A DNA stretch of 64,000 nt from an uncultured bacterium (GTDB taxonomy: Bacteria; Patescibacteriota; Gracilibacteria; Absconditabacterales; Absconditicoccaceae). Below the pieces are notes generated by a model that ran no database searches, had not been told where the DNA came from, and was given only the letters and a program-made list of their open reading frames with translations. The first letter of the stretch is position 1; each line of letters starts with the position of its first letter. Shown one piece after another: positions 58,578 through 61,800 of the stretch. The stretch covers positions 372,001-436,000 of the forward strand of contig CAMVNG010000001.1 in NCBI GenBank assembly GCA_947168815.1. Direction: 5' to 3'. The position numbers and the translations under genes were made by a program.

Positions 58578-60032
58578 ATGGAAAAAACAAAAGAACTTCT
58601 TGCTAGTCTAAATGACCACCAACTAGCATATGTCAATTTAGATCTTGCAAACCCTAAAAACGGTGAATATATGTTGGCTGTATATCACTTAAAACCAGGG
58701 AAAAATTTAAATATTCTTCAAGCAGCATGTGAAGTTGCTGCAGAATCTTCTACTGGTACAAATTTCCTTGTACAAACAGAAACTGCATTTTCTAGAGAAA
58801 TGAATGCCCTTGTATATAAACTAGATCAAGAAAAAGAACTTGTATGGATTGCTTTTCCTTGGAGACTTTTTGATAGAGGAGGAAATGTACAAAACATAAT
58901 GACATACATTGCCGGAAACATTTTTGGGATGAAAGAAGTTTCTGCACTAAAGCTACTCGATGTTTGGTTCCCCGCAGCAATGCTTGAACAATATGATGGA
59001 CCAAGCTATACATTAGCTGACATGAGAAATTATTTAGGAGTTCATAATAGACCTATTCTTGGAACAATTATCAAACCAAAAATGGGATTAACATCTGCAG
59101 AATATGCTGAAGTGTGCTATGATTTTTGGGTATGAGGAGGAGATTTTGTAAAAAATGATGAACCTCAAGCAAATCAAGACTTTTGTCCTTATGATAAAAT
59201 GGTAAAACATGTAAAAGAGGCCATGGACAAAGCTGTAAAAGAAACAGGACAAAAGAAAGTCCACTCATTCAATGTATCTGCTGCAGATTACGACACAATG
59301 ATTGAAAGATGTGAAATGATTAAAAATGCATGATTTGAACCAGGTTCATACGCTTTCCTAATCGATGGAACTACTGCAGGATGGATGGCTGTTCAAACAT
59401 TAAGAAGAAAATATCCTGATGTATTTATTCATTTTCATAGAGCAGGTCATGGAGCATATACAAGACCAGAAAACCCTATTGGTTTCTCAGTACTTGTCCT
59501 TTCAAAATTTGCAAGATTAGCCTGAGCTAGTGGAATCCACACAGGAACAGCCTGAGTTGGAAAAATGGCAGGAGACAAATCTGAAGATATTACAGCAGCA
59601 GACGGTATAAGATACATGAAAAAGAACGGACATTTCTTCGAACAATCTTGGTGAACAATTCCAGAAACAGATAAAGATTTCATCGACTTAGTACAAAGAG
59701 ATGAAGACCTTGAAGAAGTTCTTAGAGATGACTCATGGAGAGGACTCAAGATGTGTTGTCCTATCATTTCATGAGGACTTAATCCAGTACTTCTAAAACC
59801 ATTTATTGATCTTATGTGAACAACAGACTTTATTACCACAATGGGAGCTGGATGTCACGCCCACCCTAAAGGAACACAAGCTGGAGCTAAAGCTATTGTT
59901 CAAGCCTGTGAAGCATATCAAAAAGGAATTGATATTCATGACTATGCAAAAACAAAAAAAGAATTAGCAGAAGCGATTGAATTCTTCGAAAAACCAAAGA
60001 AAAAAGACTCTAGTTTAAGAATCGCATCATAA
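58578..60032 (+). CDS. rbcL: RuBisCO large subunit, form II/III
   Basis: 484 residues. Active-site residues are complete: K166 in GTIIKPKMG, carbamylated Lys K192 with D194 and E195 in GGDFVKNDEP, HFHRAGHGAYTRP, loop 6 K329 in GVGKMAGD, and SGGLNP. The numbering coincides almost exactly with form II (Rhodospirillum K166, K191, K329), and the 30-residue insert typical of form II/III is compatible. In SR1 and other CPR bacteria this enzyme works in the AMP-ribose salvage route. The first TGA-Gly is at G187; before that none occur for over 180 codons. Followed by the 60057 gene after 24 bases. Confidence 0.96.
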
Positions 60033-60056: not shown

Positions 60057-60590
60057 ATGTCTGAATTAACTGCAACATTAAATAAGTCAGTTGAAAATGC
60101 AGCAAAAAAGCTACTTGTACATTTTAAAGAACAATATGGAGCAATGATTTTCATACCATTAGGTGTTAGTGAAACAACAACTCCTGCAAAAATCGTTCCT
60201 AGTGTTGTTCCTGCTTTCGAACAATCAATGCTTTCTGCTGAAGGAAACAATATTACTGTCCTTATGAAAGATGAAAAAGTTGGAGAAGTATTTGATAGTT
60301 TTATGAACGCATTCTTTAACTCTCTTAATTTTATAGCTAAAGGAATTATGAATGGTCTTGGACTAAAAATGATGTGGGCTGATTTTAAAGTATCTCTCGC
60401 AAACCGTAAACAAAATAATCAAGAAGGATATATAAGACGAAAAAACAACCTTACCTTAGTTATTCAATGAGTCTTTGACGAAATTGTTAATGATCTAAAA
60501 ACACAAGGAATGAGTGTTACAATCACCAACGGTACAGAAAATTTTAATAGTGTTGCAGAAGCTATCGAAAAATTAGAAATATTTGCATAA
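60057..60590 (+). CDS. Unknown protein co-transcribed with RuBisCO
   Basis: 177 residues, one TGA-Gly (VIQGVFDEI). Soluble, with a helical N-terminus, a central segment FMNAFFNSLNFIAKGIMNGLGLKM that is hydrophobic but broken by polar residues, and a short alpha/beta C-terminal part. I recognise no family. It starts 24 bases behind rbcL with no terminator or promoter in between and ends at a strong terminator, so the two are one transcript. An assembly factor or regulatory partner of RuBisCO is possible but purely contextual. Confidence 0.65.
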
Positions 60591-60610: not shown

Positions 60611-60638
60611 AAGACTCCTCAAACAAAGGAGTCTTTTT
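60611..60638 (+). terminator. Terminator of the RuBisCO operon
   Basis: AAGACTCCT/AGGAGTCTT stem with a 7-base loop, followed by TTT. Confidence 0.88.
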
Positions 60639-60690: not shown

Positions 60691-60718
60691 TTGAAAATAA
60701 AAAAATAATCATTAAATA
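60691..60718 (+). promoter_or_regulatory. Promoter of the putative RNA gene
   Basis: TTGAAA (60691-60696), 16-base spacer, TAAATA (60713-60718). The expected start, about 7 bases downstream, coincides with the first base of the RNA closing stem at 60726. Confidence 0.5.
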
Positions 60719-60725
60719 ATAACTA

Positions 60726-60871
60726 GCTGATTATCTCGCAATGAAGTTTACTATCAAAATTCTCAACTTATACATGGGAGCCAAAAATCCTATCTGTATG
60801 GATAGTGAGGAGCTACCCACCTTTCCGTAAGGAGAGATGATATACTTTGTTACGGATAATCGGTCTTTTTT
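60726..60871 (+). ncRNA. Putative structured RNA, about 146 nt
   Basis: No ORF fits this stretch, yet it is strongly self-complementary. GCTGATTATC (60726-60735) pairs with GATAATCGGT (60855-60864), and CGCAATGAAGT (60737-60747) with ACTTTGTTACG (60844-60854), giving a closing rod of some 20 bp with a few G-U pairs and one mismatch. Inside lie GGGAGC/GCTACCC around a CTATC/GATAG hairpin (60776-60818), and CTTTCC-GTAA-GGAGAG (60821-60836) with a GNRA tetraloop. A T run follows the closing stem. It does not match SRP, tmRNA or RNase P signatures; a 6S-like RNA or a new class is possible. A leader of the following gene is the alternative. Confidence 0.55.
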
Positions 60872-60888
60872 ATAAATGACATTATAAA

Positions 60889-61800
60889 ATGGAAAATATT
60901 CAATTAGAATACCAAGGAACAGGAAATGAAAGAATTGATGTTTTCCTCTCAAAACAATTCCCTTATTCTAGAAATTTTTTTCACCATATAATTGAAAGAG
61001 GAGGTGTTTCTATAAATAATAAAGCAGCAAAAAAATCACTAAAACTTAAAATTTGAGATAAAATAACAATAGACGATTTAGAAAGATATCTTTCCCCAAT
61101 AATCCTTGAAGAATCACCTGACATAGAAATTCCTATTCTTAAGGAAGAAGATGACTATCTTGTCATTAACAAGCCCAAAGGAGTATTATCTCATCCAAAT
61201 AGTATACGAGACATTTCACAACCAAATGTAGTTTGATTCCTATACCATCATTATAAAAATCTTCCTTCTATAGGAAATTTTATAAGAGCTGGTATTTTAC
61301 ATAGGCTCGATAAAGATACAGATGGTTTAATGATTATTGCAAAAACAGAAAAAGGTCTATCCCATTTTAAAAACCTATTTATGGAAAAATCATCAAAAGA
61401 TACTATCGAAGAAAAAAACAAAACACCACTAAAAAAATGGTACCGTTGTCTTTGCAAACAAACACCTTTATGAAAAAATTTTTTAAGAGAAATAAATAAA
61501 AAATGACTTCCTTATCTAATACAAGAAACAGTTATCGCCAAAGTTCCTCATACAACACCAAAACTCTGAATCACACAAATAGAAAGTATTGAAGAAAAAA
61601 ACTATTCTAACGTATTCTTACATTTGCAAATTTTTACATGAAGAACCCATCAAATAAGATACCATTTAAGCAACCATGGACTGCCTATCGTTTGAGATTA
61701 TCTCTATTGAGATGATAAAAAATGACCATTACAATTAACTGCCTATAAACTAGAATTCTTGGATTGTAATCAAAAATTAATAAATATCGAAATACCATAA
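60889..61800 (+). CDS. RluA/RluD family pseudouridine synthase
   Basis: 303 residues. An S4-like N-terminal domain (ERIDVFLSKQFPYSRNFFHHIIERGGVSINNKAAKKS), catalytic segment ILHRLDKDTDGLMIIAKT with the nucleophilic Asp (HRLDKDT; family has T-S-G where this has T-D-G), and FTGRTHQIRYHLSNHGLPIVGD. It isomerises uridines in rRNA (RluC/RluD type). An insertion of about 50 residues between these motifs is longer than usual. It starts 18 bases after the RNA gene. Confidence 0.9.

Follow-up and report, generated by a model that had tools for sequence, protein, structure and literature searches.

The window analysed here, a stretch of 64,000 nucleotides from an uncultured bacterium of the Absconditicoccaceae (order Absconditabacterales; assembly GCA_947168815.1, contig CAMVNG010000001.1, positions 372,001 to 436,000), contains a gene for the large chain of RuBisCO (58578-60032; PF00016, 1.2e-93) followed by an open reading frame for a 177-amino-acid protein without Pfam match (60057-60590). 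Neither stays open from end to end unless TGA is translated as an amino acid, and TGA is read as glycine in genes of the window, including the one farther downstream that encodes an S4-domain pseudouridine synthase of the RluA type (60889..61800, + strand; PF00849, 1.4e-22, and PF01479). Between the last two lies a gene for a structured RNA on the + strand, set apart from the upstream gene by a terminator-like hairpin at 60611-60635. Its predicted promoter (60691..60720, + strand) consists of a −35 element, TTGAAA (60691-60696), and a −10 element, AATAAT (60715-60720), separated by an 18-base spacer and together agreeing with 10 of 12 consensus letters. Six bases lie between the end of the −10 element and the start of the closing stem of the RNA. 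The structured body, about 137 bases long (60727..60863, + strand), is supported by two covariance models, by a match to the Rfam 6S family and by its folding energy, and a T run follows at the transcript end (60864..60871, + strand). This T run, which has T-rich counterparts in most relatives, forms the predicted terminator together with the closing stem.

The body is organized as a rod, all of whose parts lie on the + strand. The closing stem is formed by a 5' strand (60727..60747), in which 95% of the outer and 87% of the inner cells are paired and compensatory changes occur, and by a 3' strand (60843..60863) that is likewise supported by covariation and carries a conserved ACGG motif; in the match to the Rfam 6S consensus, the conserved letters include ACGGC. 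By alignment to the 6S model, a downstream helix lies at approximately 60752-60764 and the 5' side of a central bubble at approximately 60765-60775, both within 60748..60775. The apical arm, GGGAGC...GCUACCC with a variable inner hairpin, spans 60776..60818, and 98.6% of the cells of its lower helix are paired. Fold prediction assigns 60819..60842 to the 3' side of the central bubble, which starts with ACCUU and includes a small hairpin at 60821-60836.

The minimum free energy of the window RNA is −41.1 kcal/mol, compared with a mean of −27.9 for shuffled sequences (z −3.5), and 0 of 200 shuffles folded as well. In the initial annotation, a pair of inner hairpins sat within a long closing rod. 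The hairpin at 60821-60836, with its GNRA-type loop GUAA, is predicted as an alternative to a continued rod. In the window copy the two are near equal (4.0 expected pairs for the hairpin versus 4.6 for the rod), and in most relatives structure prediction prefers the rod. The 5' side of the central bubble is predicted to be unpaired or weakly paired, with the 3' hairpin competing with pairing across the bubble. By these calculations, the fold originally described is one of two near-equal folds.

Relatives and covariation

A DNA similarity search returned two other genomes of the genus, at 93-94%, plus one distant match and nothing more. The distant match supplied the conserved words GGGAG...GAGCTACCCACC, which served as a search pattern and picked out nine family genomes with the RNA. 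One further match elsewhere in the class (G073) is apparently due to chance; a reversed control pattern had no match in any genome listed for the class. A separate, looser pattern scan of genome contigs gave mostly chance matches and one true relative (L060). The latter belongs to an Absconditabacterales MAG, which, with TGA as a glycine codon, makes that lineage the most likely origin of the window. The window RNA and six relatives were aligned with plain MAFFT (alignment A2), and a covariance model, R1, was built from this alignment alone, with no knowledge of 6S RNA put in.

Already among these seven sequences the structure is backed by covariation. Paired cells amount to 91.8% versus 80.1% in shuffles, pairs changed on both sides number 18 versus 10.1, and the covariation score is 0.44, compared with 0.215 when shuffled and 0.07-0.16 for slid partners. 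In the closing stem, 97.7% of the cells of its 19 pairs are paired and 10 pairs show changes on both sides. R1 recovered the held-out relatives G034 and G026 (60 bits) and found one locus per genome in 34 of the 49 genomes of the family, counting one (G039) in which the locus is represented by two contig-end fragments, as well as a locus in a genome of another family (G349). One refinement of R1 yielded the model R2, which detects the RNA in 39 of the 49, almost always as a single copy. An alignment of 37 sequences contains compensatory changes in 34 of 42 pairs, with 345 cells changed on both sides versus 116 when shuffled and a covariation score of 0.558 versus 0.209; it was fitted to the model and thus leans towards the structure, unlike the plain MAFFT alignment. 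It upholds the closing stem. Compensatory changes in the lower helix of the apical arm are of the type GGGAGC/GCU-A-CCC to GGAGAC/GUC-A-UCC. A structured RNA, as initially annotated, is therefore borne out by folding energy and covariation alike.

In one genome (G009, locus L234, C28:31811-32147) the RNA is present twice, as diverged copies in tandem approximately 50 bases apart, with a promoter-like TTGAAA element between them. Pairs of 6S-1 and 6S-2 RNAs occur in other bacteria, and the tandem copies are possibly such a pair. In G039, contigs C11 and C14 (L201 and L202) both end within the RNA gene and the fragments overlap, so that the assembly is interrupted inside the RNA; either the genome has an additional copy or the break is an artefact of assembly. 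The RNA of G349, on a 4.2 kb contig (C99; L182/L200) and without an RF00013 match there, is of the Absconditicoccaceae type and scores 85 bits with R2; transfer, misbinning or an intermediate form would each account for it.

A free-standing gene with changing neighbours

The pseudouridine synthase gene starts 18 bases past the T run, an arrangement common to the three genomes of the genus, as might be expected if the RNA were a cis-regulatory leader (attenuator) of that gene. Elsewhere the neighbours differ. Many other genera have the RNA between a gene for an RRM protein and one for an RNHCP-domain protein, and in some it lies near ATP synthase genes (recognized by eye, without family search). 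In several genera (L170, L175, L184-L194) the order is a gene for an RRM-domain RNA-binding protein, the RNA and the RNHCP-domain gene, all in one direction. What is kept across genera is the unit of promoter and RNA: nearly all relatives have TTGAAA-16-TATnnT in the same place, and the mean best promoter score is 9.0 of 12 versus 6.7 at control positions. Because the neighbouring genes vary between genera, we reject the reading of the RNA as a leader of the pseudouridine synthase gene and give it only a very small probability. The gene is thus free-standing, with its own promoter and terminator, and the suspicion that its setting beside the RuBisCO and pseudouridine synthase genes is due to chance fits the variety of neighbours.

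Identification as 6S RNA

Standard searches did not reveal the identity of the RNA. At the gathering threshold, Rfam reported a tRNA in the window and nothing else; with a loose E-value over 800 bases, only chance matches were returned, 6S not among them. A scan of the organism's whole genome with RF00013 missed the window copy and found no other 6S candidate, so that relatives were needed to identify the RNA. When a short stretch of the window was compared with 4227 Rfam families, 6S ranked first, matching 60721-60870 collinearly from end to end (E 0.027), yet with 19.4 bits against a cut-off of 46.4.

The relatives provided stronger matches. In a loose-threshold Rfam search of 20 of them, the standout matches other than tRNA were to 6S (SsrS) RNA and fell exactly on the RNA, with 41.2 bits (E 6e-5) at L177, 37.5 at L179, 32.4 at L180 and 25.7 at L189. 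In genome-wide scans within the family, RF00013 matched G006 (44.3 bits), G003 (41.2), G034 (37.5) and G026 (32.4), all at the R1 coordinates and over the full length. Taken singly, every copy in the family falls short of the gathering score, and 6S membership therefore rests on a chain of relatives. Across the class, 97 genomes have one RF00013 match each, 28 of them above the cut-off. An independent test ran in the reverse direction: 30 loci were selected with RF00013 from other families of the class, and R2 matched 28 of them, each time where the 6S RNA lies. Even R1, trained on this family (f1) only, landed on an above-cut-off, 52-bit 6S RNA of G274 (387-538 versus 386-544). Among 20 genome-wide R2 matches outside the family, 14 coincide with a 6S match and none conflicts; the remaining six are in genomes without a reported RF00013 match. 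R2 does not match the E. coli 6S locus even at E 10, as expected at such a distance, and this result speaks neither for nor against the assignment.

Sequence motifs point in the same direction. The family RNA and 6S RNA have in common CUG...CG, ACGG, GGGA and ACCCACCU. The E. coli 6S elements CUCUGAGAUGUUCGC...GCGGCAUCUCGGAG compare with CUGAUUAUCUCGC...ACGGAUAAUCGG in the window RNA, and GGGAGUCU...GACACCCACCU of other families of the class with GGGAGCC...GAGCUACCCACCU. An arm base of GGG / CCC beside the bubble motif CCACCU is found both in the window RNA and in other families of the class.

These data bear on whether the RNA could instead be a novel structured RNA of this lineage whose function differs and which resembles 6S in shape alone. 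The score of the window copy lies under the Rfam cut-off, and the apical arm shows strong sequence conservation of the kind seen in protein-binding elements, both of which would suit such an RNA. Against it stand the reciprocal model matches on clear 6S loci outside the family but within the class, the primary-sequence motifs held in common with 6S at matching positions, and the fact that a second locus is never found. We assign this alternative a slim chance and conclude, with high confidence, that the gene in the window encodes the single-copy 6S (SsrS) RNA of this Absconditabacterales genome, about 137 bases long and with its own predicted σ70-type promoter. The initial annotation had entertained a 6S-like RNA, a suggestion that these searches substantiate, but had called the RNA unidentified and possibly new. 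Instead of founding a new class, the RNA belongs to 6S as a diverged form that escapes the standard threshold. Of the two outcomes named there as speaking against a new RNA, a hit to a known Rfam family did come about through the relatives, at 25-44 bits at the same locus, whereas compensatory changes are clearly not lacking (covariation 0.56 versus 0.21 shuffled).

Other housekeeping RNAs had been discounted from the outset, and correctly. RNase P RNA (RF00010) has its own copy elsewhere in the genome (C1:121384-121714, 98.3 bits), and tmRNA was searched for with ARAGORN in the window. The model of SRP RNA (RF00169) has no match. A strongly diverged SRP RNA in place of 4.5S RNA would nevertheless fill a gap, as none was detected in the organism's own genome or in any of the 49 genomes of the family (0 of 49). 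The same genome, 99.7% complete, also yielded no Ffh M domain (PF02978) and no SRP54/FtsY GTPase domain (PF00448), while 14 of 14 control genomes were positive for both Ffh and FtsY proteins. An SRP RNA would thus have no partner here; moreover, the window RNA is without the SRP domain IV motif and matches 6S instead, making an SRP RNA exceedingly improbable. The SRP system (RNA, Ffh and FtsY) appears to be absent from this genome, in agreement with the lack of two SRP subunits in Vampirococcus and many other bacteria of the candidate phyla radiation (PMC8080830).

Proposed mode of action

6S RNA mimics an open promoter and blocks σ70-type polymerase; it comes free when a short product RNA is synthesized (PMC8876501, PMC8414754). 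The parts for this action are present in the window RNA: a closing stem, a 5' bubble, a 3' bubble with a small hairpin and an apical arm. By analogy, we infer that the window RNA binds RNA polymerase. Its rod with a central bubble would act as a mimic of an open promoter, and in a starved cell the RNA would occupy the active site of σ70-type RNA polymerase. Release would follow once the polymerase had transcribed a short product RNA from the 5' side of the bubble. The segment 60748..60775 is the likely template, and alignment to 6S suggests that the product RNA would start near 60764 with 5'-GAGAAUUUUGAUAGU....

A hairpin in the 3' bubble is typical of 6S RNA (PMC8414754, PMC8876501). In B. 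subtilis 6S-1, as predicted for the window RNA, a small hairpin in the 3' bubble has an alternative in pairing across the bubble (PMC8876501), and the two competing folds predicted here may resemble its rearrangement between the hairpin and a “central bubble collapse helix”. The two RNAs differ in length, sequence and taxonomic position. Ms1 RNA of Actinobacteria is also structurally related to 6S and binds RNA polymerase (PMC9130861). In contrast to the window RNA, which matches the Rfam 6S model, Ms1 binds the core polymerase and is known from Actinobacteria.

A short member of the 6S family

Textbook 6S RNA is 160-200 bases long, and its long apical arm includes a −35-like region. The RNA of this family shares with 6S / SsrS (RF00013) the rod with its closing stem, the central bubble with a 3' hairpin, the apical arm, the position of ACGG near the 3' end and of ACCCACCU at the 3' bubble, its own promoter, the usual single copy per genome and the reciprocal covariance matches in the class. 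It is shorter, at 137-149 bases (median 143.5, the six tail bases of the model counted in) versus 151-169 in RF00013-matched members of other families of the class and 183 in E. coli. The apical arm accounts for 38-43 bases versus 45-49 in those other families, and the apical loop is UGUAU/CCUAG instead of CGUGG-like. Truncated 6S-1 RNAs consisting of the bubble and two short arms, without the −35-like region, still work in vitro (PMC8876501). A short apical arm is therefore not disqualifying, and the textbook length is usual, not defining. We consider it possible, though rather doubtful, that Absconditabacterales have a shortened lineage-specific 6S RNA whose reduced arm, changed loop and bistable bubble go with a simplified release mechanism or altered polymerase contacts, in small-genome and probably host-dependent bacteria.

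A search of the literature for work linking 6S RNA to Absconditabacteria or to the candidate phyla radiation found no papers, although some may still exist. With the present assignment, the range of 6S RNA comes to include a candidate phyla radiation lineage in which the standard model misses it, and the alignment of 37 sequences can be used for extending Rfam. It also calls for caution, since an RNA without an Rfam hit in such genomes is not necessarily new. For the organisms themselves, the finding suggests that sequestration of polymerase by 6S RNA is kept in genomes of approximately 1 Mb, even where the SRP has apparently been lost.
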